From contig NZ_JAKRFD010000001.1 of NCBI RefSeq assembly GCF_022348185.1, positions 496,001 to 560,000 on the forward strand: a DNA stretch of 64,000 nucleotides. Reading direction: 5' to 3'. Source of the stretch: Epibacterium sp. Ofav1-8 (GTDB lineage Bacteria; Pseudomonadota; Alphaproteobacteria; Rhodobacterales; Rhodobacteraceae). The notes beneath the pieces were generated by a model. The model was not told the origin of the DNA, ran no database searches, and worked only from the letters and a program-made list of their open reading frames with translations. Both the position numbers and the translations under genes were made by a program. Of the stretch, positions 19,283 through 44,864 are shown in pieces; position 1 is the first letter of the stretch, and every line of letters starts with the position of its first letter.

Positions 19283-19993
19283 TCAGGCCGCCCTTCCCAT
19301 ATCAACGCGCATATCCAGAACCCGGTGTTTGATTTCAACGGGGTATGCGGTCCATACCACTAAAGCGCTATCAATATTATTACACAACTCCTTATAGGAG
19401 AGTTGAGGGCGGATTGGGACCTCCATGTCACTGCAAAGAAGACGGGGCGCAAAAGGGTCGATGGCAAAACTGTCGAGGGGACAGGCGAGACCCCGGCCAT
19501 CCGCCTTGATATAGGCTTCCTTGAGGACCCAAAGCCGGGCAAAGGCGGCGTCAAACTCCGCAGATCGGAGCGGCAGGAGGCGCGCGCGTTCAGGCTCTGC
19601 AAAGAGCCGTGCTACCAACTGTCGCGCCCGGGGGCGCGCTCGGCGCTGTTCCAGGTCAACCCCAAGCGGGGCGTGTCGGCACAGGGCAATCGCCGCATCT
19701 GCGCCAGAGTGGCTCAGGCTGAAATGCGGGGCGTTGCGACCTTGCAGCACCGGGCGTCCATGAGCCTCGCGGAGAAACCGCAAGGCGTCGGGTGCGCATC
19801 CGCTGGCCGCGCCCAGAATTCGGCGCAGCGCGGCATGGGCGGCGACATATTGCACCCGGTGCGCCGGCATCGAAATGGCTGTGGCCCGCGCGTGTTCCTC
19901 ACGATCCAGCAGGGCCAGATCCTCAGGGCGCAGCTGATCGGGCAACCGGACATGCCAGACCTCGACCGGCAGTGGCGGCAACGCGCAACTCAT
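19283..19993 (-). CDS. Sfp-type 4'-phosphopantetheinyl transferase
   Basis: Transfers the phosphopantetheine arm from CoA to the conserved Ser of carrier proteins. The 236-residue product has the family motifs HFSLSHSGADAAIALC, PLGVDLEQRR (metal-binding Asp and Glu) and FARLWVLKEAYIKADGRGL (Glu and Lys of motif 3). Size is that of a single-domain Sfp/EntD enzyme. It is the last gene of the minus-strand cluster and overlaps the acyl-CoA dehydrogenase stop. It should activate the three free-standing carrier proteins at 32635, 38770 and 43624. The C-terminal about 35 residues (coding 19290-19400) are more AT-rich than the rest. Confidence 0.95.
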   Translation of the reverse strand: MSCALPPLPVEVWHVRLPDQLRPEDLALLDREEHARATAISMPAHRVQYVAAHAALRRILGAASGCAPDALRFLREAHGRPVLQGRNAPHFSLSHSGADAAIALCRHAPLGVDLEQRRARPRARQLVARLFAEPERARLLPLRSAEFDAAFARLWVLKEAYIKADGRGLACPLDSFAIDPFAPRLLCSDMEVPIRPQLSYKELCNNIDSALVVWTAYPVEIKHRVLDMRVDMGRAA

Positions 19994-21147
19994 AGCCCAC
20001 TGGCCATGCTGCGGCCGATCAGGTCCTGAAGGATCTCGCTGGTGCCGCCCCAGATGGACTGCACCGATGCATCGAGAAGATCCTGGCTCGCAGCGGCGCC
20101 GCTGTCCCCGCTGATGCCGCCAGCCCCCCGCAGTTGTACCCCCAGCGCGGCGAGCTTCTTCAGGGTGGCGGTGGTCCGCAATTTTGCAATGCAGGCGCTC
20201 TTGGGGTCAAACCGCCCGTCCTGCACCTGTGGAATGCACTGATCGATGAAACTGCGGTTCACGGCACATTCGCTGTACAGATCCGCCAGGGCAAACCGGG
20301 GGTTTTGGTGATCGAGAAGACTGCCCTGCGGTGTGCGGCGTGCGTCGCAATCCCGGATCAGATCCTGCAAGATCCGCTCACAGCACCCCTGCGCATAGAT
20401 GGCGAGAACCAGCCGCTCCACCCCGAGGAAACTCATCAGGTAGACAAAGCCCATGCCCTCGGCACCGAGGAGGTTGCCGCGCGGAACGACACAGTCCTCC
20501 AGCGAGATCCGACCGGTATCCAGTGCCGGCATGCCGCATTTCTGGATCGCTTGCTGACTGATACCCGGACGTTCGGTCTCCACCAGCACCAGGCTCAGTC
20601 CGGGTTGGTCGCCGATCGCACCACGCGCGCTCTGCGCGGCAACAATCACCACATCTGCGACTGACCCATTGGAAATATGTGTCTTGCATCCGTTCAGAAC
20701 CAGGCTTTCACCGCTGTTGCGGGCCGTGGTGGCCATATCGGACATGGCGCTGCCGCCCTGCGGTTCGGTCAGGGCCAGCGCGCCGAGGGTTTCGCCCTGG
20801 CACAGGGCCGGGAGCAGGCGGTCTTTTTGCGCGTCCGTACCAAGCCGCAGAATGAATGGGGCGACGATATCGCTCTGCAGGCAGGTGAACAGCCCGTGGA
20901 CACGGTGCCGCGCCAGTTCCTCGATCACGATGGCGCTGTCGCGAAAGTCCCGCCCCGCGCCGCCATATTGCCGGGGTATCCCGCGTCCCAGCAACCCGGC
21001 CGCGCCAGCCCGTTGCCAAATGTCACGCGGTGTCTTCTTGTCTGCAACCCAGCGATCATGCTGCGGGACGACCTCGGAGGTCAGGAAACGGGACACCTCG
21101 GCGCGCCAGGCGTCGTGCTCGGGGTCGAAGAGGGTACGATTGAACAT
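19990..21147 (-). CDS. Acyl-CoA dehydrogenase-family flavoprotein
   Basis: A 385-residue FAD enzyme that would desaturate an acyl thioester between C2 and C3. It has the complete fold: N-terminal helices (EVSRFLTSEVVPQHDRWVAD), the flavin/substrate region LGALALTEPQGGSAMSDMAT, NGCKTHISNGSVADVVIVAA, and a C-terminal IWGGTSEILQDLIGRSM. The last motif is the GGT-E type found in long-chain and many secondary-metabolism members. Within carrier-protein pathways such enzymes act on aminoacyl-carrier thioesters (for example prolyl to pyrrolyl). It overlaps the phosphopantetheinyl transferase gene by 4 bp. Confidence 0.92.
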   Translation of the reverse strand: MFNRTLFDPEHDAWRAEVSRFLTSEVVPQHDRWVADKKTPRDIWQRAGAAGLLGRGIPRQYGGAGRDFRDSAIVIEELARHRVHGLFTCLQSDIVAPFILRLGTDAQKDRLLPALCQGETLGALALTEPQGGSAMSDMATTARNSGESLVLNGCKTHISNGSVADVVIVAAQSARGAIGDQPGLSLVLVETERPGISQQAIQKCGMPALDTGRISLEDCVVPRGNLLGAEGMGFVYLMSFLGVERLVLAIYAQGCCERILQDLIRDCDARRTPQGSLLDHQNPRFALADLYSECAVNRSFIDQCIPQVQDGRFDPKSACIAKLRTTATLKKLAALGVQLRGAGGISGDSGAAASQDLLDASVQSIWGGTSEILQDLIGRSMASGL

Positions 21148-21159
21148 GGTGTCTCGCGA

Positions 21160-22182
21160 TCAGCTGAAGGAGGCGGGTTCGGGACGCAGGACCTGCGCAC
21201 CACCGAGCTGCACCGCGCGAAGGCTGTGCTGAAGCTCCGCCTCGCTTTCCGGCACGTCCAGGATCAGCGTGGTATAGCCAAGGGCCCGATACCGGCCGAC
21301 ATAGGCCGCCACCTCGCCGTAGCTGCCGACCAGATAGGGGCAGAATGTCTTGTAGTTGCGCAGGGGAAACAGCCAGTAGGCACCATCGCGCGCCTCGTGC
21401 AGGTCATCCGCTTTTTGCGAGATTTCCTGGTGCCAGATGCTGTCGGTGGTGCCCCGAGCCATCTTGTGGGCGAATTGGCCACGCCGATCCGCCGGGAACC
21501 GCAGGCGTGCCTCCTGCCAGGCCTCGTCGGAGGTTTCACGGGCAATGACGCCAAAGCGCAGGCCGATCTGGCCTTCTCCGGGAAGCGGGGCAAGCGGTTC
21601 GAGATCGTGAGGCGGCTTGGTGTAGCTGAGGCGGGTGGCCCCCAGGGTCGCCGCTGCCGCCGCGCAGGCCTCAGATGCGCCGGAGAGGTAAATCTCGGGC
21701 ATGAGTTCCGGCGGCAGCTCTGGCGAGAGCGTCAGATTGGTCACCTGATAATATGTGCCGCTGAAAGTCACGGATTCTCCGCGCAGCAGCGCCTGTAGAA
21801 TTTGCGTGTACTCCACCAGCCGGTCATAGCGGGCATCATGCTCGGTTGCGTCACCCAGCTGCTCCAGATCGCGGACAAAGCCCCCGGCCACCATGTTAAG
21901 CGCCATCTTGCGCCCATAGAGAAAGGCGAGGGAGGACACCTTTCGCGCGGCAGCCAGGGGAGACATGTAAAGCGGTTGAACAGCGACCAGCGGTACGAAG
22001 CGATGGGTCCGCTCCATCACCGCCTGGGCGACGGTCCACGGGTCCATCAGGCTGTTGTCGGTATAGATCAGCATCCCCTCAACGCCGGCGGTTTCATTCC
22101 ATTGCGCCAGCGTTCCCACGGCATCGAGATAGGCACCGGGCGCGTAGCGGACAGAAGGCGGAGCGGTGGTCAGAAGTTTCAT
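21160..22182 (-). CDS. Luciferase-like flavin-dependent monooxygenase
   Basis: A 340-residue FMN- or F420-type TIM-barrel oxidoreductase. The ATG at 22182 (MKLLTTAPPSVRYAPGAYLD) has AGGAA seven bases upstream; the frame runs 18 codons further without homology. Family features are MLIYTDNSLMDPWTVAQAVM, HRFVPLVAVQPLYMSPLAAA, ALNMVAGGFVRDLEQLGD, and YDRLVEYTQILQALLRGESV. Members in natural-product clusters perform N- or C-hydroxylation or Baeyer-Villiger oxidations. It lies between the FAD monooxygenase and acyl-CoA dehydrogenase genes, so it is probably a tailoring enzyme. It would need a flavin reductase, which is not in the window. Confidence 0.88.
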   Translation of the reverse strand: MKLLTTAPPSVRYAPGAYLDAVGTLAQWNETAGVEGMLIYTDNSLMDPWTVAQAVMERTHRFVPLVAVQPLYMSPLAAARKVSSLAFLYGRKMALNMVAGGFVRDLEQLGDATEHDARYDRLVEYTQILQALLRGESVTFSGTYYQVTNLTLSPELPPELMPEIYLSGASEACAAAAATLGATRLSYTKPPHDLEPLAPLPGEGQIGLRFGVIARETSDEAWQEARLRFPADRRGQFAHKMARGTTDSIWHQEISQKADDLHEARDGAYWLFPLRNYKTFCPYLVGSYGEVAAYVGRYRALGYTTLILDVPESEAELQHSLRAVQLGGAQVLRPEPASFS

Positions 22183-22232
22183 CTTGGTATTCCTTGCCAA
22201 AGAGATGGGAGATCGCAAAGCGGCGCGACGCG

Positions 22233-23609
22233 TCACTCGGCCAGTTCGCTGCAGAGCACGTCGAGCCTGTCCGGCGGATCAAGCAGATGCAGGACGCGGT
22301 CGATCTGGCCACGCATCGCCGGGCGCATGACGGAGGCGGAAAAGGCGAGCCGCAACCGCTCGGCGAGGTGATCGCACTCGGCGTCCGGCTGTTGCCGCAT
22401 CTGCGGGTAGGCGCGATCAACAGCGCCGCCGATGTTCCAGGCCCAGCCAGCCGTCCGGCAGGCTTCTTGCAGATAGGCGCTTTGTGCCATTGCCAGATCT
22501 GGCTGGCGGGTCAGTGTGTTATGCAGCGACAGTGCCTGAAGCGCGGCAACGCTCATGCCCTGTCCAAACAGCGGGTTGAAGGTCGCGATGGTGTCTCCGA
22601 TCGGAAAGTACCCGACCGGCAGGTCCTCTGCGATGTGATCAAAGCGCCGGAAGCGCACCGTCTTGATCGCAAAGCCACGCAGGCGCGAGACCATCGGCGC
22701 ATCTGCCAGTCGGGCGGAGAGCTCTGCGCCGGCGATGGCCTCGAACAGCTGGCGAAAGCTCTGCTCGTCTCGCGGCATCTGGGCGCCGAAACGTCCGGTC
22801 AGGGTGATGATCCAGCGGTTGTGTTCCACCGGCGCCATGACCAGGCTGCGGGTTCCGGGCGCCTGTGCCGGGCGGAGCCAGGCGCTGAGGGCGGTGGAAC
22901 CATCCTGCGCGGTCCTGTCAAAGAAGGCACTGCAGTAGCGGATGTCAGGTGTCCGGGTGTCTTCCGGCGGGAGGCGGCCCGACGCCGCCGCCAGCCATTT
23001 GAGACTGTCGCCGGCCCGCCCCGAGGCATCTATGACGATGTCTGCGGGGACCGGGCGATCCGGTGTGGAGGGAGGCTGCGCTGTGTCCTGTACATGGACC
23101 CCGGTGATACGCGCCGAATGCGGGTCTTCACCCGTCTGAGTCACCAGCCCCCGGACACGGCCGGACATGAGGGTCAGATGTGGTATCCTTCGCACCCGTT
23201 GCCGCAGCGCCTGTTCGAGGAGCGGCCGACTCTGGCTCAGCACCATCGGACCGGTGTCTTCGGGCGTGCACCATTCGTGCCCATCGTGAGTGCGCCATTG
23301 CGACCGGACCTTGAGAGGCAGGCTTCCGGCCCGTTGCAGCGCCGCCCCGATCCCCGGCATCAATTGTTCCAGCGCCTGCCGGCCGCTGTCCAGCAACGCA
23401 TGGACATGCGGGGCCTGCGGGATACGGCGCCTGTAGGTGGCACCGTCGGGGAGGCCGTCGGGCTCGATCAGAATGATCGACGCGGCATGGGGGGCAAGCG
23501 CGCTACAGGCGGCAAGACCGGCAATGCCGCCACCGATGACCACCGCGCGAGGACGCTCTGGGTGCATCCCACGCGGTGGGGGGGAGGTCGAGGGCTGCGG
23601 CAGTGCCAT
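22233..23609 (-). CDS. FAD-dependent monooxygenase
   Basis: A 458-residue flavoprotein. The Rossmann motif is AVVIGGGIAGLAACSAL near residue 22. The distal FAD motif is PVGYFPIGDTIATFNPLFGQGMSV, as in the squalene-epoxidase and aromatic-hydroxylase group. A DASGRAGDSLKWL segment corresponds to the second FAD contact of this family. No halogenase Trp motif was seen. The start at 23609 lies 4 bp after the stop of the permease gene, so the two are coupled; the ATG 14 codons later lacks a ribosome-binding site. It is a probable tailoring oxygenase of the cluster. Confidence 0.87.
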   Translation of the reverse strand: MALPQPSTSPPPRGMHPERPRAVVIGGGIAGLAACSALAPHAASIILIEPDGLPDGATYRRRIPQAPHVHALLDSGRQALEQLMPGIGAALQRAGSLPLKVRSQWRTHDGHEWCTPEDTGPMVLSQSRPLLEQALRQRVRRIPHLTLMSGRVRGLVTQTGEDPHSARITGVHVQDTAQPPSTPDRPVPADIVIDASGRAGDSLKWLAAASGRLPPEDTRTPDIRYCSAFFDRTAQDGSTALSAWLRPAQAPGTRSLVMAPVEHNRWIITLTGRFGAQMPRDEQSFRQLFEAIAGAELSARLADAPMVSRLRGFAIKTVRFRRFDHIAEDLPVGYFPIGDTIATFNPLFGQGMSVAALQALSLHNTLTRQPDLAMAQSAYLQEACRTAGWAWNIGGAVDRAYPQMRQQPDAECDHLAERLRLAFSASVMRPAMRGQIDRVLHLLDPPDRLDVLCSELAE

Positions 23610-23613
23610 CGGC

Positions 23614-24807
23614 TCAGGCCCGTCCGGTCATTGCCGCGCGCAGGGGGACGCGTGTGGCGCGCAATGCGGGCAAGCCGCCGCCGACCGCACCGATCGCAAG
23701 AGCCAGCACCACCGCGCTCACCGCCTGTGGCCAGGACAGGGCGAGCTGAAACGCCAACTGTGCATTCGCGCCGCCCTTTGTCGAGGCACTCCAGCCATCG
23801 AGCCCGATCCAGGCCAGCGCCACACCGATGGCGCAGCCGATCAGTGTCAGAACCAGCGCTTCGACAAGCGTTGCTACAAACGCCGCGCTGCGGCTGAACC
23901 CCAATGCGCGCACGGTGGCGATCTCGATCATCCGGTCGGAGACCGAACTGTACATGGTGGTCATGGCACCCACCGCGGCGCCGAAGGCCATGACGATCGC
24001 CAGGGGCCATCCCAGGAACAGGATGATGCGGCTGATGTCGCTGGCCTGGGCGGCGTAAAAGGCCTTTTCGGTCTGTGCCGCCAGTCCCATGTCGAGCTCG
24101 TCTTCCACATAGGCGCGAAACTGTTCAAACCGCGCTGCATCGGAGAGTTGCACACGCAGGGACTGGATCTGGTTGGGGCGGTTGAATTGCGCCTGTACCA
24201 GCCCCGCATCGGCCAGCAGCTCGCTCTCGAAGACACTGCCCCCGGCCGTGAAGTGCCCGACGACGGTCCATTGCGAGCGCCCGAAGGTGATCGTATCGCC
24301 CACTGCCAGATTGCGGTAGCGCGATGCCAGACGCGCACCAACAACGATCTCGGCAGTGCCGGGGGTCATCATGCGGCCATCGCTGATCTGCACCCGGGGG
24401 CGGAGCGTCAGGCCGGTTTGGTCGATACCACGCAGCGACAGGGTTTCATTCTTGTTGCTGTCCAGTGCGACCGCGTCCACCGGCACCACCAGTTCCCGAG
24501 AGATCAGAGGCGTGCCATCGTCGGTGCGAACAAGGCCGGGGGCCTCTTCAACCAGATGGGCCTGCTGGGTCTCGATCCGGCTCAGGGCCTCGCTGAAGGC
24601 ACCGCGACTGAGCACCAGCGCCACGTTGTCGGCGCCGGTCGACGACAGCGTCTTGCGAAAGCCGTTGGCCATGGCGAGAAAGCCCAGGAGCACCAGCACA
24701 ACGAGGGTCACGGACAGCACCATCGACAGGGAAATCCAGGCCCGGCGCGGCAGGCTGCGCAGGTTGGCGGTCGAGAGCGCGAGGGATTGACGGAGAAAAC
24801 CGAACAT
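23614..24807 (-). CDS. ABC exporter permease, FtsX/MacB type (second copy)
   Basis: A 397-residue inner-membrane protein with one N-terminal helix (AWISLSMVLSVTLVVLVLLGFLAM), a large periplasmic domain (about 60-270), and three C-terminal helices (FLGWPLAIVMAFGAAVGAMTT, FVATLVEALVLTLIGCAIGVALAWIG, ALSWPQAVSAVVLALAIGAVGGG). The ATG at 24807 has AGGTGAT upstream and lies 4 bp after the stop of the other permease gene. The two permeases are paralogous and probably form a heterodimer driven by the LolD-type ATPase. Such systems, with an adaptor protein, move lipids, peptides or toxins out of the inner membrane. Confidence 0.9.
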   Translation of the reverse strand: MFGFLRQSLALSTANLRSLPRRAWISLSMVLSVTLVVLVLLGFLAMANGFRKTLSSTGADNVALVLSRGAFSEALSRIETQQAHLVEEAPGLVRTDDGTPLISRELVVPVDAVALDSNKNETLSLRGIDQTGLTLRPRVQISDGRMMTPGTAEIVVGARLASRYRNLAVGDTITFGRSQWTVVGHFTAGGSVFESELLADAGLVQAQFNRPNQIQSLRVQLSDAARFEQFRAYVEDELDMGLAAQTEKAFYAAQASDISRIILFLGWPLAIVMAFGAAVGAMTTMYSSVSDRMIEIATVRALGFSRSAAFVATLVEALVLTLIGCAIGVALAWIGLDGWSASTKGGANAQLAFQLALSWPQAVSAVVLALAIGAVGGGLPALRATRVPLRAAMTGRA

Positions 24808-24811
24808 TGGA

Positions 24812-25972
24812 TCACCTGTGTTTGAGAGCTGCCGCGATCGGCAGGCGAAGAGCATTGATCGAGGGCAGCGCGCCGCAGGCGAGGGCAAATCCCACCGCCA
24901 GCGCCACCGCCGTGCCAATCACGCGCGGGGTGAGGTAGAGGCCGGGCACGACGCTTTGCAGCGCATCGGCCAGCATGGGGATCACCGCGGCCGTGAGACT
25001 GAGCCCGAGGCACAGCCCCAGCGCAAACAGCACCAGTGTTTCCGCCAGAACGATGCGCATGATCCGCCCGCCGGAAAAGCCGAGGACTTTCAACACGCCG
25101 ATCTCCAGCGTGCGCTCCCGGATGGCAAAGATCATCGTATTGGCGACGATCATCAGGATGGTGGCAAAGGCGACCCCGACGATCAGCCGGACCAAAAGCG
25201 CGATATTGGCAAATTGCTCCAGGAAGGCCGACATGAAGGCGGTTTCGGATTGGGTCCGGGTCTGGGCGCCGGAATTGGCATAGGCGGCGTCAATCTGGCG
25301 GGACAGGGCGTCGGTGTCCGCGCCCGGTTGCGGTTTGATGCCGTAGAGATCGACCCGGTTGCGATTGCGCAGGACCGCGGCGTGGAAATAATCGGACCGC
25401 GCCAGCAGAAAGCTGGTGTCGGTGGTGATCTCGGCCCCGTCGAAAATCCCGGCAATGGTGAAGCGCCAGTTGCGATCCCCGCCGTCGCGGGCGTGCACAA
25501 AGCTGGTCAGCGTCACACTGTCTCCGGTATGCCAGCCCATCCGATCAGCAAGGGTGCGCCCGACCAGAATGGCGGTGCGATCCGCCTCGGCGGCGCGCAG
25601 CATGTCGGGCGTGAAATTATAGGTGTCGGCATAGACCCGGGCGTAGCTTTCAAGATCGACCGCGTTGGCACCGACGATGTTGCGCTCGTTGCCGACAAAG
25701 GCGCGCAGGCGGGTGATGTGGGTGACCTCGGCCACGTCATCAAGTGCTTCGATCTCCGGCAGATAGGACAAGGGCAGCGTCTCGTTGCCGCCGACCTTGG
25801 AGGCGACCACCAGCCGCGCGGTCTGTGACCCGGCCCCTTCAAACCCCTGGCGAAAGCTTGACAGGACGCCAAAGATGAAGAAGGCGACGCCGATGCACAG
25901 GATCAGCAATACGCTGCGCAAGAGCTTGCGCGTCAGGTTCTGACGGATCAGCAGGGACGGGCTCAGGCGCAT
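24812..25972 (-). CDS. ABC exporter permease, FtsX/MacB type (first copy)
   Basis: A 386-residue permease of the same type: N-terminal helix LLRSVLLILCIGVAFFIFGVL, periplasmic domain about 45-255, then C-terminal helices (LIVGVAFATILMIVANTMIFA, VLAETLVLFALGLCLGLSLTAAV, GTAVALAVGFALACG). RERTLEIGVLKVLGFSGGRIMRIV is the conserved FtsX cytoplasmic coupling segment. It overlaps the ATPase gene by 10 bp and is followed by the second permease after 4 bp. Confidence 0.9.
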   Translation of the reverse strand: MRLSPSLLIRQNLTRKLLRSVLLILCIGVAFFIFGVLSSFRQGFEGAGSQTARLVVASKVGGNETLPLSYLPEIEALDDVAEVTHITRLRAFVGNERNIVGANAVDLESYARVYADTYNFTPDMLRAAEADRTAILVGRTLADRMGWHTGDSVTLTSFVHARDGGDRNWRFTIAGIFDGAEITTDTSFLLARSDYFHAAVLRNRNRVDLYGIKPQPGADTDALSRQIDAAYANSGAQTRTQSETAFMSAFLEQFANIALLVRLIVGVAFATILMIVANTMIFAIRERTLEIGVLKVLGFSGGRIMRIVLAETLVLFALGLCLGLSLTAAVIPMLADALQSVVPGLYLTPRVIGTAVALAVGFALACGALPSINALRLPIAAALKHR

Positions 25973-26667
25973 TGCGCGATCTCCTCCGACACGAAACGCC
26001 CCTTGTCGAGGAACACGGTACGTTTGGCCACGCGGGTCGAGCTTTCGTCGTGGGTGACCATGATGATGGTCTTGCCCAGTTTGGTGTTCAGAAGTTGCAG
26101 CAGGTCCAGGATCTCGTCGGCGGACTTGCGGTCCAGATCGCCGGTGGGTTCGTCGCAGAGCAGGATGCGCGGGTCGCTGGCGATGGCGCGTGCGATGCCG
26201 ACCCGTTGCTGCTGCCCGCCGGACAGCAGTGACGGCAGGTGATCGTGCCGATCCGACAGACCGACGATATCCAGGATCGTATGCACCCGCTCGCGCCGTT
26301 CCGACGCGCTGAGGTCGGTCAGCAGGAGCGGCAGCTCGACATTCTGCGCGGCACTCAGCATCGGCATCAGGTTGTAGAACTGGAACACGAAGCCGATCAC
26401 CTCGGACCGCCAGCGCGTCAGGGCGCGGGTGCTCATCTTGTCGAGCATGGTGCCGCCAATGCTGACATGGCCCTTGTCGACCGTATCGATGCCGCCGATC
26501 AGGTTGAGGATGGTGGATTTTCCCGACCCCGACGGCCCCATGATGGCGAGAAAATCGCCATCGGGAATGGACATGGTCAGATCATCGAAGATCGGAATGC
26601 GGGACTTGCCCAGCGGGTAGCTCTTGCAGACGTTGGTGAGTTCGATGTCGTATGAGACAGGGGTCAT
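25963..26667 (-). CDS. ABC exporter ATP-binding protein, LolD/MacB type
   Basis: A 234-residue ATPase with Walker A GPSGSGKSTILNLIGG, Q-loop FVFQFYNLMPML, signature LLSGGQQQRVGIARAIASDP, Walker B ILLCDEPTGDLD and H-loop VTHD. These are the features of the LolD/MacB/FtsE group that drives FtsX-type permeases. It sits between the adaptor gene (3 bp gap) and the first permease gene (overlap), giving a tripartite exporter order of adaptor, ATPase, permease, permease. Confidence 0.94.
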   Translation of the reverse strand: MTPVSYDIELTNVCKSYPLGKSRIPIFDDLTMSIPDGDFLAIMGPSGSGKSTILNLIGGIDTVDKGHVSIGGTMLDKMSTRALTRWRSEVIGFVFQFYNLMPMLSAAQNVELPLLLTDLSASERRERVHTILDIVGLSDRHDHLPSLLSGGQQQRVGIARAIASDPRILLCDEPTGDLDRKSADEILDLLQLLNTKLGKTIIMVTHDESSTRVAKRTVFLDKGRFVSEEIAQCA

Positions 26668-35469: not shown

Positions 35470-36332
35470 CAGGTGCCTCCGTCCTCTGCGGCGAAGCCCA
35501 CGACGCAAAGTTCCTGGTCCTGCCAAGTCATCAACAGGTTGTTGCGCGTCGCAGGCATCCCCATCAGCGCCCGCAGGGGCGCAGCGCACATCTGGCTGGA
35601 GGGAGCCGGGCGCCAGTCGGCGAACCCCTCGTCGAGGCCCCTGAGACGGTCATCGGAAATCAGCACCGTTGCCGACGGATCAAGCCCGAGATCGCGGCAG
35701 CTGGTGTCCAGCACCGCGGGCAGGTCTGCCTCTTCGATCTGGATGTGACGGCGATAGCCCCGATAGCAAAGCCCGGATTTCGCCTCCGACTCCAGCAGCA
35801 ACAGGCTGGCGGAATTCTCCGGTTGCAGCTGTTCGGCGGTTGGTGAGCGATAGAGCAGATGCTTCTGATCCATGGTCATCACCAAGGCGCGGCGGCCCTG
35901 GCGGGTCAGGTAACGCGCGGCGCAGTCAATGGCAAACAGCGGAGCAGACAGCCCCCGGTCCGAGATGGCAAATCCGAACCCGTCGGGCCGATCCATCCAA
36001 TGCAGGGCAAAATTGGTGACCGAGGTTCCTAGGTGCAGGTCGGGCATCCAGTGGGCCAGCAGGACCAGATCGACGTCTTCCAGCGGGTCGTGCTGCCGCA
36101 GCTCGTTCAGCAGTTCCTCCGCCATGGCGGCAAAGGAGGCCCGATCCGGCGCGGATAACCAGTTCTCGACATTGCTCTGTGCGACGGGATCGTATTCCTG
36201 TCCATTGGATCGAAAGAAACGGGCGTTGAAGTCTTCCCAATAGGCATGCTGGTCCGCCGCATCCGCGACCGGCGGTTCCAGTCCGCCGAAGCTGGCGCCA
36301 ACGATCTTGGCCGGGTCCAGGCGCAGGGTCAT
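35469..36332 (-). CDS. Degenerate KAS III-like protein, probable non-catalytic partner
   Basis: A 287-residue protein with weak thiolase-fold features: DVDLVLLAHWMPDLHLGTSV, then the nucleophile-elbow region FAISDRGLSAPLFAIDCAA, then RRALVMTMDQKH. At the elbow the Cys is missing (Gly-Leu-Ser, about residues 127-129), and no PHN-type catalytic His is visible. Its gene overlaps that of KAS III-like enzyme 1. By analogy with PqsB, or the chain-length-factor subunits of type II polyketide synthases, it may shape the active site of its neighbour. The family assignment is by eye and moderate. Confidence 0.6.
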   Translation of the reverse strand: MTLRLDPAKIVGASFGGLEPPVADAADQHAYWEDFNARFFRSNGQEYDPVAQSNVENWLSAPDRASFAAMAEELLNELRQHDPLEDVDLVLLAHWMPDLHLGTSVTNFALHWMDRPDGFGFAISDRGLSAPLFAIDCAARYLTRQGRRALVMTMDQKHLLYRSPTAEQLQPENSASLLLLESEAKSGLCYRGYRRHIQIEEADLPAVLDTSCRDLGLDPSATVLISDDRLRGLDEGFADWRPAPSSQMCAAPLRALMGMPATRNNLLMTWQDQELCVVGFAAEDGGT

Positions 36333-38773: not shown

Positions 38774-39048
38774 ACCGCCACATCGTGGGATTTGCGCGCC
38801 GCGATGAATGCAGACAGAGCCGAGATGGTTTCGAATACGCCTGTGCCGCCTTCGAAGCTCTCCATGAACTCAAAGCTTTCCATGCCCGTGCGGTCCGACA
38901 GGGCAACGATGAACTGGACCAGCTCGATCGAATTCAGCAAACCGCCGGTCCCGAACAGAGCCTCGCCTGATCTGGCCCGTTCGATGCGTTGAGGTCCAAG
39001 GCCGATGTCGCTCAGGCTGGCGAGGATGGCATCTGTCATGTCGGTCAT
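38770..39048 (-). CDS. Free-standing acyl carrier protein 2
   Basis: A 92-residue protein with a carrier-type helix after the phosphopantetheine Ser, in GGLLNSIELVQFIVALSD (about residue 40). The motif has Asn before Ser instead of the usual Asp, so it is a divergent member. The C-terminal helix is FETISALSAFIAAR. Its ATG overlaps the stop of KAS III-like enzyme 2 as ATGA, and its stop overlaps the decarboxylase-dehydrogenase start. These overlaps make it the likely carrier for both. Confidence 0.82.
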   Translation of the reverse strand: MTDMTDAILASLSDIGLGPQRIERARSGEALFGTGGLLNSIELVQFIVALSDRTGMESFEFMESFEGGTGVFETISALSAFIAARKSHDVAV

Positions 39049-40016
39049 TGGGAAACTCCAGTTTGCGGGAATGAGAGAGGCAGAGGTGTGTCCGTCACCC
39101 GCAACAGCGCGCAGGATGCGGTCGCGCCGAGGCCGATGCTGAACAGGAGCACCTCGTCGTCGGGCTGCAGCACATCGTCCTGTGCGCCGCGCCAGAGGTT
39201 GAGAAAGGGATCGACACCAAAACAGTGGCCATAGCAGCCGATGGTCGACAGGCGCAGTTTCTGCGTGTCGATCCCGGCGTCTTCGGCCACCTGATACCAG
39301 GAGGGCGCATTGACATTATGCGGCATCACCCATCGCAGATCCTGCGGGGTGCGGCCAAAGTGTCGAAGCGCGTCCTGCAGCGTCTTGCTGGCCAGCTGGA
39401 CATAGGCGCTGTCAAACCCATCGAGGTAGTTCTCGCCACGCAGACCGGTGTTCTTCCAGAATTGCGAGGCATGACGGGTAAAGGTGTCGACCACCTCAAA
39501 GGGCCCCGGGGTGCGACCGACCAGCAAGGCGGCTGCGGCCTCGCCCATGATCGTGGTGTTCTCGATCACGCGGATCGCCGGGTGAAAGGCCTTCTCTCCG
39601 ATCAGGATCAGGCCAGTATCATCAGGGCCGAGCAGGTGATCCAGCATGCCCAGCATGCTCAGCCCGGTTGCACAGTGGTTCATCGTGGCGTCAAAGACCT
39701 CGACCCCCGCGGCGGCGAGTGCCGCAAGATGGCTGGACGCCGGCGTGTCAAAAACCTGCGTCGAGAGCAGCGTGTGACAATGCACAGCATGGCTGAGGGC
39801 GCTTTGGCGGTTCTGGTTGCGATCCATCAGGGCGCCCACCGCCTGGTCGAGCAGGTGGTGCAGTGGTTCCGCGTGGTCGCAATGGAAGGTTTCGAACCCG
39901 AAAAAGCGATCATACATCCGGATCTGGTTGCGTGACAGCGACAGGTCGTCGGCCAGGTCAGCAAGCTTTTCCTGCCGCGCCGGGAACACCACCGAGAGAT
40001 CGAGGAGGGTCAGCAT
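39045..40016 (-). CDS. KAS III-like condensing enzyme 2
   Basis: A 323-residue FabH-type enzyme. The nucleophile is Cys115 (FDATMNHCATGLSMLGML), the catalytic His is His233 (WVMPHNVNAPSWYQ), and His264 (CYGHCFGVDPFLNL) replaces the usual Asn. It shares QIRMYDRFFGF and LIGEKAFHP segments with KAS III-like enzyme 3, so these two are the closer paralogs. The ATG at 40016 has GGAGGG upstream. It overlaps the hydrolase gene upstream and carrier protein 2 downstream. Confidence 0.88.
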   Translation of the reverse strand: MLTLLDLSVVFPARQEKLADLADDLSLSRNQIRMYDRFFGFETFHCDHAEPLHHLLDQAVGALMDRNQNRQSALSHAVHCHTLLSTQVFDTPASSHLAALAAAGVEVFDATMNHCATGLSMLGMLDHLLGPDDTGLILIGEKAFHPAIRVIENTTIMGEAAAALLVGRTPGPFEVVDTFTRHASQFWKNTGLRGENYLDGFDSAYVQLASKTLQDALRHFGRTPQDLRWVMPHNVNAPSWYQVAEDAGIDTQKLRLSTIGCYGHCFGVDPFLNLWRGAQDDVLQPDDEVLLFSIGLGATASCALLRVTDTPLPLSFPQTGVSQ

Positions 40017-40987
40017 GGTGGCCCTCCGCGAGGGGGGGCTGATCGGGCAGGTGGCGTCGGAGGGGTTCCCACGTGCGCCGAGGCGGGGTGGCGCGTGGTT
40101 TCGGGCAGTGCAAAGCACACAATGCCTTCGAACAGGCGCGGGTCATCGAGGATGCTGTGGTGGTTGCAGGCGTCCAGCACCAGCGCGCGCGCGGCGGGCG
40201 CGATGGAACAGATGTCTTCGGCCTCGCTGAGGCGAACCTGCCAGTCACGCCGGGCATGAATGACCATGAGCCGCGACCCCATGCGGGCAAAAAGCTCCGG
40301 CCCGATTTCATGCGGGGGGCGCCCCTCACGGCGCGCCGCCCGCGAAAGCAGCGCATCGGTCACTGCGATTGGGGCTGAGATGCGACACAGATACGCTCGC
40401 AGCAGCGTTTCCATCGAATATGGCGCGCAGATCGTGACCAGACGGGCCGCAGTCAGCCCGGCCTCGATCACCTGCGCGGCGATCAACCCGCCGGCGGAAT
40501 GCCCGATGACCGTGTCGATGTCCTCATCGCGATACTGGGCGGCCAGAATCCGGGCCTTGGCGCTGAAACTCATCGGGCGCGCCGGGTTGCAGCCCTCCCC
40601 CGGCAGGTCCGGCAGAATGACGCGCGCGCCGCTCGCCGCGAGGGCCAGCGCCAGGGGCGTCATCATGGCGCTGCGGGCATTCCAACCGTGCAGAAGCAGC
40701 ACGCGCGGCCCGTTTTCCGGTCCGAACCGGCGTTCGGCAAGGCAGCCTGCGGTACGGGCATCCGGGGCCTCCTGGGCGGTGTCTGGGGTCATGCGTTCAA
40801 ACCGGTGCAACGCCAGCATCGCGCCCCATTCGGGGTTGAGCGCGGTCAGTACATTCAGCTCCTGCCGACGCATCCGACCCCGCACAGCGCGAAAGGCGAA
40901 CATGGGCCCCGCAGGTGTCGGGCGGCGCATGGCGCGGCGCCACAGCGCCAGCGCACAGAGACCGGGATAGGCGAGTTCAAACAGCAT
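40010..40987 (-). CDS. Alpha/beta hydrolase
   Basis: A 325-residue hydrolase with the oxyanion motif VLLLHGWNARSAMMTPLALA, nucleophile elbow VIGHSAGGLIAAQ, a lid with LLRAYLCRISAPIAVTDALL, and the catalytic His in LVLDACNHHSILDD. It could release or edit products as a thioesterase, though it lacks type II thioesterase signatures. The ATG at 40987 is chosen because the extra 18 upstream codons lie inside the MATE gene. A Pro-rich C-terminal tail (TRHPASAHVGTPPTPPARS) has no homology. It overlaps genes on both sides. Confidence 0.85.
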   Translation of the reverse strand: MLFELAYPGLCALALWRRAMRRPTPAGPMFAFRAVRGRMRRQELNVLTALNPEWGAMLALHRFERMTPDTAQEAPDARTAGCLAERRFGPENGPRVLLLHGWNARSAMMTPLALALAASGARVILPDLPGEGCNPARPMSFSAKARILAAQYRDEDIDTVIGHSAGGLIAAQVIEAGLTAARLVTICAPYSMETLLRAYLCRISAPIAVTDALLSRAARREGRPPHEIGPELFARMGSRLMVIHARRDWQVRLSEAEDICSIAPAARALVLDACNHHSILDDPRLFEGIVCFALPETTRHPASAHVGTPPTPPARSAPPRGGPPC

Positions 40988-42341
40988 GGGCCCGCCCCAG
41001 GCTGCGCAGAAGCAGCAGGAACTGCACCGCGAAGAGACCAAAGCTGCCAGCTGCTGCCGCGATCAGGACGTCAAGGATGAGCCCCATGCCCGCGCCCTGC
41101 ATCATCGCCCAGAGCACAGCGGCGCAGGTCCCGGCCTCGATCAGGAAGGTGATGACCAGCACCTGAACACCGCGCCCCAGCTGCTCCAGGATCACCTGCA
41201 GCATGGCGGAGCCGGAAATCAGGAAGAAGGTGATCAGCAGCTCGGTGAACATCTGGTTGGTGGCCGCGCGCAGCGCTTCGGCCTGTTCAGGAACCAGCAG
41301 ATCGAGCGCCCCTGTCCACTGTGGCAACAGCGCGGTCACGATCGCATACAGGCAGAGCATGAAGGGCACACCGATGATCAGATAGCGCAGGCGCTGGGCG
41401 GTTTGACCCTGCTCGGCGAGCTGGTTGACCAGGATCGCGATGGCGGATCCGATCGCGATTGCGGGGATCATGAAGGCAATGCGATAGCGCAGCACCACAA
41501 AGAAGGCAGAGGCGCTGTCCTCGCCTATCTTGGACAGGATCGGAAACACCACCGAGGCGCTGACAAACCCCACCACGATCGAGCTGAACACGGGGATGCC
41601 GACGCCGATCTGGAGCTGCCGGATGCGGATGCGGAAGGGTTCTTCCGGGCTGTCTTCCCCATCGCGCAGCTCGCGCCGCAACAACAGGGCGATGACCGGC
41701 AGCATCAGGATCGGACCAACGAGATTGCCGATCAGAACCGCTTCGAACCCCCAGCCGTATTGTGACACCAGCACGTAGGTTGTGGTCAGGTCGATCGCGA
41801 CAAGACCGACAAAGGGCACGAGCCCCAGCAGGACCTTCCCTTGTCCGCGCATGGCGCCATAAAAGATGTCGAACACGACGAAGGGCACCAGCGACAGCAT
41901 GAACAGCGGAAAATGCGCGAGGATCAGGCGGATCTCCGGGTCCTGGACAGGCAGAGTTTCGGCCGCGGCATAGCCAACTGCGGCGACGATCACGAACAGG
42001 ATCACGCCATTGCGGCACAGGCGCAGCACCGCGCGCTGGGTGCCACGGCGGGGCCAGTTGTGACGCGAGCGGGCGCTGAACACCTGCGCGGTGATGGCCA
42101 AGCCCTCCATGATGGCCAAGGCCAGGATGAAGCTTGGTTGCAACAGCGACAGCGTGTTCAATGCGCCGGTGTCCGGCACACGGGCCAGCAGCGCAACTTT
42201 GCCCAGATTCAGCGTCGAGGTGGCGGCGGCACCAACGGCAAAGGGAATGGCAAGCAGCAGAATGCGGGAAAGCGTTTGCCAGACCGTGGGTCTGGCCGCG
42301 TCGAGCAGGGCGTCGGCGGTGGGAGTTGCGGGTTGCATCAT
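40977..42341 (-). CDS. MATE-family efflux transporter
   Basis: A 454-residue inner-membrane protein with about twelve helices, for example ILLLAIPFAVGAAATSTLNL, LALAIMEGLAITAQVFSARS, ILFVIVAAVGYAAAETLP, VFSSIVVGFVSASVVFPILS and LVITFLIEAGTCAAVLWAM. MATE proteins export drugs and metabolites using a Na+ or H+ gradient. It lies inside the biosynthetic block, overlapping both neighbours, so it probably exports the product or an intermediate. It is the second exporter of the cluster besides the FtsX-type ABC system. Confidence 0.92.
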   Translation of the reverse strand: MMQPATPTADALLDAARPTVWQTLSRILLLAIPFAVGAAATSTLNLGKVALLARVPDTGALNTLSLLQPSFILALAIMEGLAITAQVFSARSRHNWPRRGTQRAVLRLCRNGVILFVIVAAVGYAAAETLPVQDPEIRLILAHFPLFMLSLVPFVVFDIFYGAMRGQGKVLLGLVPFVGLVAIDLTTTYVLVSQYGWGFEAVLIGNLVGPILMLPVIALLLRRELRDGEDSPEEPFRIRIRQLQIGVGIPVFSSIVVGFVSASVVFPILSKIGEDSASAFFVVLRYRIAFMIPAIAIGSAIAILVNQLAEQGQTAQRLRYLIIGVPFMLCLYAIVTALLPQWTGALDLLVPEQAEALRAATNQMFTELLITFFLISGSAMLQVILEQLGRGVQVLVITFLIEAGTCAAVLWAMMQGAGMGLILDVLIAAAAGSFGLFAVQFLLLLRSLGRAHAV

Positions 42342-42976
42342 TGGCTCCTGATGGGCGTTGCGGCGAGGGGGACGGCGGCCTGTGCCCGGCGCTGGCTGAG
42401 ATCAACGGCGCGATCCCGGGTGCCAAGCAGCGCATAGCGCAAGGGGCGCGTGGGGCGCGGTCGCGGGGTGAGCCGCTCGGTGGGATCGCGCAACACCAGC
42501 GACAGGCTGCTGTTCGCGGTCATCGCGCGGGCGAGGGCCATCGCATCTTGCAGCGATTTGCGACACTCCACCCGCAGCGCATGCACCGGCCCGTGGTGAT
42601 CCAGGGTCTGCAACAGGTATTGCAGGATCGGGCTTCGGGTGTCGGGTTGATGGCCGCAGTGCAGATAGACCAGTAGCGGAGTATCCGTTTCGGCGCAGAG
42701 GCGCCGCCAATCATCCCGCAGCCGTTGGGAATGCAGGTCGGGCACCGCGTCCGCGTTCGAGAACAGATGCATCGCCGGCGGGGTAGAATCCGTGGACGAC
42801 TGGAGGCGCTTCCAGGCGTCCAGTCGCTGCTGAAGGCAAGGGTCGAACGGATGCTCTCGGGCGGCGCTGTCCTCTCCGGTGTCGCAGGAATACAGGATTG
42901 GACGCGCCGAAGCGCGATCAGGCAAGGTTCCGGATGCCAAGAGCCGAACTTCGGCGAGACTGGGTTGAAGCGCCAT
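42338..42976 (-). CDS. Short degenerate KAS III-like protein (N-terminal half only)
   Basis: A 212-residue protein not recognisable at first sight. Its central part, PLLVYLHCGHQPDTRSPILQ and VHALRVECRKSLQDAM, lines up with KAS III-like enzyme 3 (GLVVYCKTQTHNTRTDQNWL and VHALSMTSCASALACL). It keeps a Cys at or near the nucleophile position. The C-terminal half of the fold, with the catalytic His, is missing. It may be a remnant or a regulatory partner. The ATG at 42976 lies 4 bp after the stop of the dehydrogenase-like gene, and the stop overlaps the MATE start. Confidence 0.55.
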   Translation of the reverse strand: MALQPSLAEVRLLASGTLPDRASARPILYSCDTGEDSAAREHPFDPCLQQRLDAWKRLQSSTDSTPPAMHLFSNADAVPDLHSQRLRDDWRRLCAETDTPLLVYLHCGHQPDTRSPILQYLLQTLDHHGPVHALRVECRKSLQDAMALARAMTANSSLSLVLRDPTERLTPRPRPTRPLRYALLGTRDRAVDLSQRRAQAAVPLAATPIRSQ

Positions 42977-42980: not shown

Positions 42981-43631
42981 TCACACCCCGCTGTGCGACG
43001 ACGGGACCAGGGTCGCACGGATCAGGGTGGAGAGGTACTCCAGCCCATGCACGGCCCCCTCACGCAGGCCGTGGCCGCCCATGAGTTTGGCGACCTGCAC
43101 CATATGTGTGTCGATCTCGGTGTGCAGCCGATCACAGCCTTCGATGTCGCCCCGGGGGTCTGACAGGATGAGTTCGCGGCGCAGCTGGTTCACAAACATG
43201 CTGCTTGCGGAAAACCGTGCCTTGACCAGTTGGTGATGCAGCGTTTTCTGCCCCAGGCTCTCTCTGGTTTCGAGATGGGCAAAGGCCATGTCCATGGCGT
43301 GCGCGAGGATCCCGGCGCGCAGGGCCAGGGTCGCCAGGGCGACAGAGGCCGGACGCGGGTGCAACGGCCGGGGGGCGACCTCCGACAGCACCAGCCCGAA
43401 ACAGGCGATGCCATGTTCCGTCCGCGTGGATCGGGTGCCGACGTCGGCTGCCGGCTCTGCCGGATCAACCAGTGGCGTATCCGGCAGATGGATCGCATGG
43501 CTGCGACCGGCGAGGAAACCGTCCCGTCCGGTGACCAGAAGGCACGCGGATTGCAGGGCCTGCGCCGGGGGCGCGCGCCGGGCGGTCTCGAAGATCTGCT
43601 CCGTGAGGGGGCCGGTTGCTGAATCAAGCAT
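42981..43631 (-). CDS. Truncated acyl-CoA dehydrogenase-like protein
   Basis: A 216-residue protein. The C-terminal about 120 residues resemble the helical domain of acyl-CoA dehydrogenases (VALATLALRAGILAHAMDMA, HLETRESLGQKTLHHQLVKA, DTHMVQVAKLMGGHGLREGA). The N-terminal helical domain and most of the beta-domain are absent, and no E-G-T base motif is seen. It may be a non-catalytic partner of a full dehydrogenase. The ATG at 43631 overlaps carrier protein 3. The alternative upstream start gives 40 extra residues without homology. Confidence 0.65.
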   Translation of the reverse strand: MLDSATGPLTEQIFETARRAPPAQALQSACLLVTGRDGFLAGRSHAIHLPDTPLVDPAEPAADVGTRSTRTEHGIACFGLVLSEVAPRPLHPRPASVALATLALRAGILAHAMDMAFAHLETRESLGQKTLHHQLVKARFSASSMFVNQLRRELILSDPRGDIEGCDRLHTEIDTHMVQVAKLMGGHGLREGAVHGLEYLSTLIRATLVPSSHSGV

Positions 43632-43893
43632 GTGCCTGCTCTCCCTGGGCAAGGCTTGCTTCGATGTGCTCCACCAGCTTTTCCATGGTGTTGAACCCGG
43701 CCTGACCAATGGTTTCGGGGTCGAACCGCAGCCCCGGCAACTTGTCCTCAAGGCCCAGGAGGAACTGCACGAACATGTAGCTGTCGAGGTCGAAGTCCCG
43801 GTCGAACCGCATGTCAGGGCGAATGCCGGTAACAGGGCGTTCCAGAACCTCGGAGAGAACCTCGGAAACGGCAGTGGAAATGGTCTTGTTCAT
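43624..43893 (-). CDS. Free-standing acyl carrier protein 3
   Basis: An 89-residue carrier protein. The phosphopantetheine Ser is in DRDFDLDSYMFVQFLLGLED (about residue 37). The N-terminal helix is MNKTISTAVSEVLSEVLERP and the C-terminal helix is TMEKLVEHIEASLAQG. The ATG at 43893 has AAGGAA eight bases upstream; the frame runs further upstream through the KAS III gene but without homology. It lies directly after KAS III-like enzyme 3, repeating the KAS-carrier order seen at 39 kb. Confidence 0.92.
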   Translation of the reverse strand: MNKTISTAVSEVLSEVLERPVTGIRPDMRFDRDFDLDSYMFVQFLLGLEDKLPGLRFDPETIGQAGFNTMEKLVEHIEASLAQGEQAHA

Positions 43894-43928
43894 GGAAGGC
43901 TTCCTTATGCTTCGGGCAGTGAGTGGGA

Positions 43929-44864
43929 TCAGGGGGCGGGGCAGGCGGGGGGATCTCGGTCCAGCAAACAGGCGGAGAAGGTCACGCCGGTCCCTGCCGC
44001 CAGCAGCAGGACCTGCTGGACCGGACCAGTGTCTGAGACAACCGCCTCCAGATTGACGAACGGATCTGAGCAATAGGCATGACCGGTTCCTGCGATGTCG
44101 CCCTGGAAGGTCCGGTCCTGCCAATCGAATGCCCGGATCAGGGCATCGGTCAGCGGACGGTTGAGATTATGCGGCACAAAGATCATGTCGCGGCTCAGCA
44201 CCGCTGCATGGCGATCCAGAAAGGAGGCCACAAATTGCGTGAGCCCCGGCGCATACGCCTGTTGCAGGGCAAGTCGGTCCTCCGGGCCCATCGCTTCGGG
44301 GTTGATGTGAAATCGCGGCAGGTGCCGGACCGCTGTGCCGTGCACGTGCCAGGACCCGGGACCGGCATTCAGAACCGCTGCGGTGGGAACCTCCGCCAGC
44401 AGGCCGACCGTCAGGCGGGACACCGAAGGATGGAAGGCCTTTTCCCCGGTCAGCACGATGACTGGGGCCTCAGTGCCGCACTGCGTGACGAAATGAAGAC
44501 AGGCCAGCGCGGAGGCGCAGCTGGTCATCGACAAGGCATGCACGTCCCAATGGGCCAGCCCGTGCTGATCGACCATCTGCCGCAGCCAGTTCTGGTCGGT
44601 GCGCGTGTTGTGTGTCTGGGTCTTGCAATACACGACCAGCCCCGCGGACCGGCCGCGGTCTGGCAAACTGTCGATGGCGCCTTGCAGGACCGGGGACAGC
44701 ATCCCAGTCTGTGCGTCCCGGTGACGCGTGACGGATTGCAATCCGAAAAAACGGTCATACATCTTGGCCGAGGTCGGGGTCAGCCCATGACTGGGACCGA
44801 GCTCTTGCAGAGGTATCTTTGTGCCACCGTCCGGGGACAGCGCGATGTGACACAGGGTTGTCAT
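43929..44864 (-). CDS. KAS III-like condensing enzyme 3
   Basis: A 311-residue FabH-type enzyme and the first gene of the 25-kb minus-strand cluster. The nucleophile is Cys116 (ALSMTSCASALACLHF), the catalytic His is His232 (FVPHNLNRPLTDAL), and His262 (GTGHAYCSDPFVNLEAV) stands where FabH has Asn. It shares AKMYDRFFGL and LTGEKAFHP segments with enzyme 2. A 566-bp gene-free stretch with operator-like elements lies upstream, so this is the probable start of the main transcript. Confidence 0.88.
   Translation of the reverse strand: MTTLCHIALSPDGGTKIPLQELGPSHGLTPTSAKMYDRFFGLQSVTRHRDAQTGMLSPVLQGAIDSLPDRGRSAGLVVYCKTQTHNTRTDQNWLRQMVDQHGLAHWDVHALSMTSCASALACLHFVTQCGTEAPVIVLTGEKAFHPSVSRLTVGLLAEVPTAAVLNAGPGSWHVHGTAVRHLPRFHINPEAMGPEDRLALQQAYAPGLTQFVASFLDRHAAVLSRDMIFVPHNLNRPLTDALIRAFDWQDRTFQGDIAGTGHAYCSDPFVNLEAVVSDTGPVQQVLLLAAGTGVTFSACLLDRDPPACPAP

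Follow-up and report, generated by a model that had tools for sequence, protein, structure and literature searches.

A condensation-domain-free gene cluster in Epibacterium sp. Ofav1-8 that may build a (dehydro-)beta-alanine peptide on three free carrier proteins

How might a peptide be assembled by genes that encode free carrier proteins, adenylating enzymes and no condensation domain? The question is raised by a cluster of 24 open genes, all on the minus strand, at positions 19283-44864 of a 64,000-nucleotide stretch of the Epibacterium sp. Ofav1-8 genome (contig NZ_JAKRFD010000001.1 of 578,929 bases, positions 496,001 to 560,000; this stretch is termed the window, and coordinates refer to it unless another locus is named). 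We consider it moderately probable that these genes specify a fully dissociated, condensation-domain-free peptide route in which aspartate would be converted to (dehydro-)beta-alanine. The proposal builds on the gene set, its conservation and its residue patterns, from which the substrates, the order of steps, the product and each reaction are predicted.

Gene content and free carrier proteins

The cluster encodes three free carriers, three adenylating enzymes, three proteins resembling 3-ketoacyl-acyl-carrier-protein synthase III (KAS III), a phosphopantetheinyl transferase and an alpha/beta hydrolase. It also encodes a decarboxylase/acyl-CoA-dehydrogenase fusion of 814 amino acids, one more full dehydrogenase, a luciferase-type and an FAD (flavin adenine dinucleotide)-type flavoprotein, a P450-like protein, an HlyD/ABC/FtsX exporter and a second membrane exporter. 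The Pfam scan covered 20 of the 24 genes and the NCBIfam scan 19; the HlyD, ABC and two FtsX genes were named through annotated Tritonibacter mobilis orthologues. An earlier reading of the letters alone (the sequence-only reading) had listed the carriers, adenylating enzymes, KAS III-like proteins, fusion, P450-like protein, hydrolase, transferase and two exporters, and Pfam, NCBIfam and orthologues bear this list out. Its estimate of about 25 minus-strand genes, mostly overlapping, holds for the strand of all 24, with overlaps at 13 of the 23 junctions and a largest gap of 191 bases.

That reading had also seen no condensation domain, in agreement with our search of the whole genome, which gave 0 matches to PF00668; the same search was positive in 4 of 14 control genomes (3 above cut-off). 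No multidomain synthase of the modular nonribosomal peptide synthetase (NRPS) or polyketide synthase type and no malonyl-loading acyltransferase was recognised among the 20 Pfam-scanned genes, nor was a polyketide synthase recognised in the cluster. Two carriers match Pfam PP-binding: ACP1 (43624-43893; 1.7e-7), with its serine in a DLDS motif and conserved in 13/13 loci, and ACP3 (32635-32901; 3.6e-9). Unlike these, ACP2 (38770-39048), which lies beside the fusion gene, has no Pfam match and reaches an NCBIfam phosphopantetheine-binding model at 1e-4, under cut-off; its serine is nonetheless kept in all 12 loci in which it was found.

KAS III-like proteins

The three KAS III-like proteins are KS1 (43929-44864, 311 amino acids; Pfam ACP_syn_III_C), KS2 (39045-40016; Pfam 9e-13) and KS3 (34495-35469; Pfam matches slightly under curated cut-offs), and each has a Cys/His/Asp triad. 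Alignment of 32 such proteins from the window and its relatives left C115, P232, H264, D269 and G295 invariant, so that the acyltransferase triad C115/H264/D269 is present in 32/32. The Cys-His-Asn triad of FabH is not found: in all 32 proteins the FabH Asn column is occupied by His, with Asp at position +5 from it. Profile matches of this alignment to the PDB include ChlB3 and CerJ. The triad of ChlB3 is Cys113, His296 and Asp301 (PMC9573744, in excerpt), with the same His-Asp spacing of 5. In the excerpted account of AFC-BC11 biosynthesis, the Cys/His/Asp enzyme AfcL holds a peptidyl thioester and transfers it to lysyl-CoA, not to free lysine (PMC12186527). Because of the triad and this peptidyl transfer by AfcL, we take amide formation as the leading reading for KS1-3, by analogy.

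KAS III genes adjoin carrier genes at 39 and 43-44 kb, as the sequence-only reading had it. The paired condensing steps that it drew from this adjacency are recast here: carbon-carbon condensation appears less likely than acyl transfer, because the triad is universal in the alignment and no malonyl-loading gene was recognised.

The sequence-only reading listed two degenerate KAS III-like proteins without coordinates; of the two that we take to be meant, one holds up. KSdeg1 (35469-36332), which lacks the active Cys, aligns with the KAS III profile over 193 columns (hhalign 83%, E 9e-6) and matches FabH at E 0.0037; it could pair with its neighbour KS3. The other, deg2 (42338-42976), scored 0.4% in the same hhalign comparison, has no Pfam, NCBIfam or PDB match, and is listed here as a conserved protein of unassigned fold.

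A further KAS III-like gene occurs in each of the four related loci (G316, Agrobacterium vitis, Rahnella and G519) with a separately encoded decarboxylase and a Cys-bearing P450, and in none of the nine loci with the fusion, among which the Phaeobacter locus is incomplete, its contig starting after KS1. In Rahnella aquatilis HX2 (L041) and G519 (L047/L048) there are two KSdeg1-type copies, each adjoining a KAS III-like gene (with its Cys present in L041), an adjacency that suggests heterodimer pairs.

The aspartate branch

The 211-amino-acid core of the ligase A1 (32942-34519) has PDB entries 3wv4/3wvn, which we take to be VinN, as its best match (E 3e-43); a whole-length search placed linear gramicidin synthase above VinN, with two domains summed. 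VinN Asp230 and Arg331 are conserved in the A1 homologues of 13/13 loci, and the side-chain carboxylate of L-aspartate is probably the group that A1 activates, judging from these residues. The fusion gene (36329-38773) encodes a pyridoxal-phosphate (PLP) decarboxylase half whose best solved match is BtrK (7ru7; E 4e-85), with the closest diaminopimelate decarboxylase reaching 9e-45; the PLP lysine and the CTPxD and ELGRY-type motifs are conserved. The top NCBIfam matches of ligase and decarboxylase are the exosortase-associated models TIGR03098 and TIGR03099, both under cut-off. ACP2 is probably the beta-alanine carrier, to judge by gene order.

The other two adenylating enzymes, A2 (31085-32638) and A3 (28065-29606), resemble DltA (NCBIfam subfamily matches of 2e-96 and 6e-93, both under cut-off). 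Because the pocket motifs of A2 are almost invariant over 13 loci and those of A3 are more variable, an Asp-derived and an A2-derived residue are probably the parts common to products of the family; we infer that A2 uses a small amino acid. The earlier suggestion of two activated amino acids plus an acyl starter is thus altered to three adenylating enzymes, one of which probably serves the conversion of L-Asp to beta-alanine. The product may or may not include an acyl starter.

In six genomes of the strain's taxonomic family, the stretch read shows an A1-like ligase next to a BtrK-like decarboxylase with no such cluster around them (G302 C1:306416-307618, designated L022, and L017-L021). These lone pairs could be of the exosortase-associated type and could be where the starter module came from.

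A dehydrogenase divided between two genes

The full acyl-CoA dehydrogenase, acad1 (19990-21147), has three Pfam domains, an ER motif at 7/7 and a catalytic-Glu position that is presumably of the isovaleryl-CoA dehydrogenase type. In the dehydrogenase half of the fusion, the Glu of EYMEGT, which we take to be the catalytic residue, is kept in 18/18 aligned homologues that cover the site, and its flanks vary (EYTEGT, EFLEGT, EYMEGA or EYMEGV in some). This half and four unfused homologues are without a stretch that acad1 keeps as R...QG...Q. The R...G...Q stretch of acyl-CoA dehydrogenases touches FAD across the dimer interface. The missing stretch is retained by acadC (42981-43631; motifs RESxGQK, conserved as R-ES-GQK, and KLMGGHG), whose profile matches the isovaleryl-CoA dehydrogenase C-terminal domain at E 3e-4 and which was found in all 14 loci of the cluster family with sequence covering its place (the G1120 contig does not reach it). 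Of the two additional dehydrogenase-type proteins listed earlier, then, acad1 is full and acadC is a C-terminal fragment, conserved as such. The fused dehydrogenase and acadC may form a heteromeric enzyme.

The bolagladin (bol) and AFC-BC11 (afc) pathways of Burkholderia bear on what the fused dehydrogenase might do. For bolagladins, a ligase/carrier/decarboxylase trio was proposed to make a beta-alanyl-carrier from L-Asp; the product was lost when bolN was deleted, and loss of the dehydrogenase homologue bolQ led to dihydro products in which beta-alanine took the place of dehydro-beta-alanine (PMC7756342, in excerpt). The AFC-BC11 ligase and decarboxylase were reconstituted in vitro (PMC12186527, in excerpt). 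Because of the bol deletions and the reconstitution of the AFC-BC11 ligase and decarboxylase, we read the fused dehydrogenase as the probable former of dehydro-beta-alanine. The fusion contains a dehydrogenase homologue with a catalytic-type Glu, which is likened to BolQ by description.

A Streptomyces decoyicus plasmid (L043, 17680-26929) carries a KAS III-like gene, a BtrK-type decarboxylase, a carrier and a truncated and a full dehydrogenase beside a large NRPS; its match to acadC is weak (40 bits). A dehydro-beta-alanine lipopeptide is a possible product of that cluster.

A P450-like protein without the heme cysteine

The P450-like protein (29726-31072; Pfam p450 1.1e-26) reads PFGIGPRVRSR at the Cys motif and so lacks the heme-ligand Cys, a feature absent from the sequence-only reading. 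Twelve sequences, spread over 10 loci, are without the Cys: one each from the window, Phaeobacter, G302, G075, G361, G1120 and two T. mobilis strains, and two each from Rhizobium and G583. Five sequences have it, two of them from G316 and one each from A. vitis, Rahnella HX2 and G519, which makes 4 loci; these counts do not extend to nine other Rahnella records that match the P450. Since the residues at the Cys position vary among the Cys-less proteins, no substitute heme ligand is apparent from the alignment. The Cys-less and Cys-bearing proteins separate with support 1.0 in a 15-tip tree, in which the G361 sequence is partial (the counts above use its full form), F1926 stands for T. mobilis in place of the L009 copy, and an unrelated G075 P450 from outside the cluster (80 bits, Cys present) is left aside. 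In-cluster P450 copies are exclusively Cys-less in 9/9 fused-gene loci; of five split-gene loci, four have a Cys-bearing P450 and in one (G010) no P450 was found.

Between the window and T. mobilis F1926, the ratio of nonsynonymous to synonymous differences per site (pN/pS) is 0.14 for the P450, with synonymous sites near saturation. Other values in this comparison are 0.32 for KS1, 0.32 for A2, 0.30 for A3, 0.12 for the luciferase-type protein, 0.25 for KSdeg1 and 0.33 for deg2. Against G302 the P450 value is 0.51, among the higher ones. We read the Cys-less P450 as apparently kept rather than decaying.

Distribution, gene order and transfer

Matches to the fusion protein at E 1e-60 were found in 11 of 394 genomes drawn from the strain's family. 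Six of these, the window's own included, carry the cluster; in the other five, the stretch read contains solely an A1-like ligase adjoining a BtrK-like decarboxylase, in one case on a 3,850-base contig. Own genome included, KSdeg1 profile matches occur in 4 of 398 genomes of a phylum sample and 2 of 385 of a class sample, and P450 matches in 3 of the 18 genomes of the genus. Among 72,556 plasmid records, 16 match KSdeg1 (ten Rahnella, three Tritonibacter, and one each of Gemmobacter, Rhizobium and Agrobacterium).

A shared core was assigned in 14 loci by searches with profiles from which some paralogues of A3 and acad1 had been removed. The cluster occurs in Rhodobacteraceae, in Rhizobiaceae and, rearranged, in Rahnella. 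Its gene order is identical or nearly so in the Rhizobiaceae and in the Rhodobacteraceae except G010, with A3, the P450 or KS1 moved in some; the order is rearranged in G010, Rahnella HX2 and G519. The cluster is thus conserved as a unit in other genomes, and this co-occurrence therefore upholds the proposal of a dissociated carrier-protein pathway against the objection that the genes might not travel together. It is plasmid-borne in five named plasmid records read, and lies on contigs of 3.7 to 4.8 Mb in G302, G075 and G316. Concatenation of five proteins gave a tree in which Rhizobium sp. and G583 stand next to the group of the window (0.991) and A. vitis next to the Rhodobacteraceae genome G316 (1.0). 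Spread by horizontal transfer would fit this tree, which is built from cluster proteins.

The related cluster of the grapevine isolate A. vitis VAR03-1 (L039) sits on a 649 kb plasmid and encodes its decarboxylase and its dehydrogenase in separate genes. In Rhizobium sp. pMK-3 (L040, regions 7385-8892 and 23531-25491), annotation divides the A3 homologue into two overlapping frames and lists no gene for the open frames of the KSdeg1 and KS3 homologues; the collection that holds this record has, by design, incomplete gene tables.

Proposed pathway and its alternatives

In the pathway that we propose, the phosphopantetheinyl transferase would activate the three free carriers. A1 would load L-Asp, or methylated Asp, through its side-chain carboxylate onto one of them, probably ACP2, and the BtrK-type half of the fusion would decarboxylate the bound residue to a beta-alanyl-carrier; the two DltA-like enzymes would charge the remaining carriers with two further amino acids. 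The KAS III-like acyltransferases would use Cys-His-Asp to hand an aminoacyl or peptidyl group on to the amine of the following carrier-bound residue, replacing condensation domains; as in AFC-BC11, some amide bonds might be made by adenylating enzymes. Once N-acylation has taken place, the fused dehydrogenase, probably with acadC supplying the missing FAD-contact motif, would form a dehydro-beta-alanine enamide. Tailoring of the peptide would fall to acad1 and the flavin oxygenases, the hydrolase may release it and the two exporters would secrete it, with the Cys-less P450 acting as a heme-free or non-oxidising scaffold. We infer that the product is a short peptide with Asp-derived (dehydro-)beta-alanine. 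The pair of exporters, and the lack of TonB-receptor matches within the window, favour a secreted bioactive compound over a siderophore.

A more ambitious version is possible and on balance doubtful. It would be a patchily spread, transferable family of secreted three-carrier peptides, in which all amide bonds between carrier-bound residues come from the three KAS III-like acyltransferases, the fusion turns Asp into dehydro-beta-alanine with an FAD site split between it and its truncated partner, and the P450 without a heme ligand is an essential carrier-docking scaffold.

Several points weigh against the proposed pathway. The likeness of the afc and bol proteins to the present ones is one of description, and the role of AfcE as the dehydro-beta-alanine-forming dehydrogenase is an expectation in the excerpted afc work (PMC12186527). 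VinN Ser299 is replaced by Thr in A1 of 13/13 loci and the residue preceding Arg331 is His rather than the Lys of VinN; methylaspartate or glutamate could also be the substrate, and it is gene order that pairs carriers with amino acids. In the comparison with T. mobilis, acadC is the least constrained gene of the cluster (pN/pS 0.47). KAS III-like enzymes with a Cys-His-Asp triad can form C-O, C-S or C-C bonds, and the literature covered holds no direct precedent for a KAS III enzyme that acylates an amine held by a second carrier.

The last point leads to the alternative that the KAS III-like enzymes join carrier-bound amino acids and an acyl starter through C-C bonds, in Claisen fashion, with an aminoketone, a pyrrole or a tetramate-like small molecule as the product. 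The KAS III fold and the two genes adjoining carriers would suit this, as would a pairing of KSdeg1 with KS3, possible from their adjacency, for which PqsB/PqsC is a precedent. With the acyltransferase triad in every aligned protein and no recognised means of malonyl loading, we regard such chemistry as rather unlikely. A siderophore, as suggested for the bolagladins, has a slim chance: bol-type starter genes are held in common and bolagladins bind iron (PMC7756342, in excerpt), yet the genome's 6 TonB-receptor matches all fall outside the window, the exporters are of MATE and HlyD/ABC/FtsX types, and no citrate-type gene is among the 20 scanned.

The under-threshold exosortase-associated matches, together with the five family genomes holding such a ligase/decarboxylase pair alone, might point to a route by which a surface polysaccharide receives a beta-alanyl or similar group. 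No glycosyltransferase is among the scanned genes, and the set conserved together is large and includes exporters, which leaves this reading a very slim chance. Scarcely any weight attaches to decay, in which the Cys-less P450 and the truncated proteins would be pseudogenes of a remnant cluster. The missing Cys, the truncated KAS III and dehydrogenase and the pN/pS values of acadC against T. mobilis and of the P450 against G302 could be read that way; the idea is largely contradicted by open frames in 24/24 genes, by the T. mobilis ratios of the P450, KSdeg1 and deg2, and by a Cys loss common to 12 sequences in ten loci. The condensation-domain-free peptide route remains our preferred reading. 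On that reading, the Cys-less P450 and the split dehydrogenase offer testable cases of former enzymes retained for another role.

Accessory and neighbouring genes

The phosphopantetheinyl transferase (4'-type; 19283-19993) matches Pfam ACPS at 1.9e-13, and the alpha/beta hydrolase (40010-40987), a possible release enzyme, matches Abhydrolase_1 at 1.7e-13. The MATE-type exporter (40977-42341) owes its name to a Rahnella orthologue annotated MatE (322 bits), Pfam giving one sub-threshold match. The other exporter comprises an HlyD-type adaptor (26671-27873; orthologue annotated efflux periplasmic adaptor), an ABC exporter ATPase (25963-26667) and FtsX-type permeases 1 (24812-25972) and 2 (23614-24807; 783-bit orthologue match). 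The luciferase-type flavin monooxygenase (21160-22236) matches Bac_luciferase at 1.3e-33. The FAD-dependent oxidoreductase (22233-23609; Pfam and NCBIfam) appears accessory, since 5 of the 15 family loci, a set with some incomplete members, contain it. Its Gemmobacter counterpart is annotated "tryptophan 7-halogenase"; WxWxIP, which we take to be the halogenase motif, is missing in 5/5 sequences, two of them from T. mobilis strains, and halogenase identity was rejected.

An AraC-type regulator on the minus strand (18049-19143; Pfam HTH_18) is a frequent neighbour, with a profile match in 11 of 15 family loci. Upstream of the cluster, 45431-50365 holds uronate-type catabolic genes including a UxuA-like mannonate dehydratase and, by eye from translations, a GntR-like regulator, a beta-glucuronidase-like enzyme and a TRAP-type binding protein. 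A minus-strand run at 13607-16564 encodes an arylmalonate-decarboxylase-like protein, an M24 peptidase and a PLP enzyme (PALP), and near it lies an AsnC-type regulator on the plus strand (16697-17203).

Comparison with known systems

DesVIII and EryCII are P450-like glycosyltransferase helpers without a heme cysteine. The present P450 is like them in lacking that residue and differs in having no glycosyltransferase among the scanned genes of its cluster.

We found no description of this exact gene set in the open-access literature searched (MIBiG lay outside the search), in line with the sequence-only reading; its logic does, however, have precedents in bolagladin (PMC7756342) and AFC-BC11 (PMC12186527), both drawn on in excerpt, as are the other sources cited here. 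A link to the "antibacterial substance" of Rahnella HX2 was considered and dropped: the excerpts of PMC4263746 name gluconic acid, and those of PMC9015054 and PMC5665550 name no such cluster. The antiSMASH clusters of T. mobilis AK171 include an NRPS-like one without known similarity (PMC11225332), which may or may not be the present cluster.

The vicenistatin/fluvirucin starter route (VinN, VinL, VinO) has the same types of ligase and decarboxylase and decarboxylation on a carrier (PMC7756342, PMC12186527); it feeds a polyketide synthase, whereas none is recognised here and the decarboxylase is fused to a dehydrogenase. CerJ and ChlB3 share the Cys-His-Asp triad with KS1-3, but they transfer to a sugar hydroxyl and to a carrier (PMC9573744), whereas the acceptors here would probably be carrier-bound amines. 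The bol cluster of Burkholderia gladioli is alike in its VinN-like BolO, carrier BolC, BtrK-like BolN, dehydro-beta-alanine-forming dehydrogenase BolQ and KAS III-like BolM and BolP; it differs in feeding a modular NRPS and in having Ser or Thr for the KAS III Cys (PMC7756342), which is kept in three proteins here.

Closest in logic is afc, the single in vitro-reconstituted case found of condensation-domain-free peptide assembly with a KAS III-like enzyme, on one carrier; AfcQ and AfcP are supported in vitro, and AfcL in vitro and by deletion (PMC12186527). Common to both are a VinN-type ligase (here with Asp230/Arg331), a free carrier, a decarboxylase acting on carrier-bound Asp (here BtrK-type), dehydrogenase genes, Cys/His/Asp KAS III-like enzymes and the lack of a condensation domain. 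The present cluster is nonetheless not an afc cluster, for afc has a single carrier, a fatty acyl-AMP ligase, a citrate synthase and a methyltransferase (PMC12186527), whereas here there are three carriers, one VinN-type and two DltA-like ligases, three Cys-bearing KAS III-like enzymes, the fusion, the P450-like protein and flavin oxygenases. New relative to the known pathways are thus the three carriers, the decarboxylase-dehydrogenase fusion, the truncated dehydrogenase with the motif that the fusion lacks, and the Cys-less P450. If the proposal is right, KAS III-based, condensation-domain-free peptide assembly would extend to three carriers and at least two bacterial classes; it would offer freestanding enzymes for engineering and a signature for genome mining, namely a BtrK-type decarboxylase with a VinN-type ligase and a GHxxxxD KAS III.

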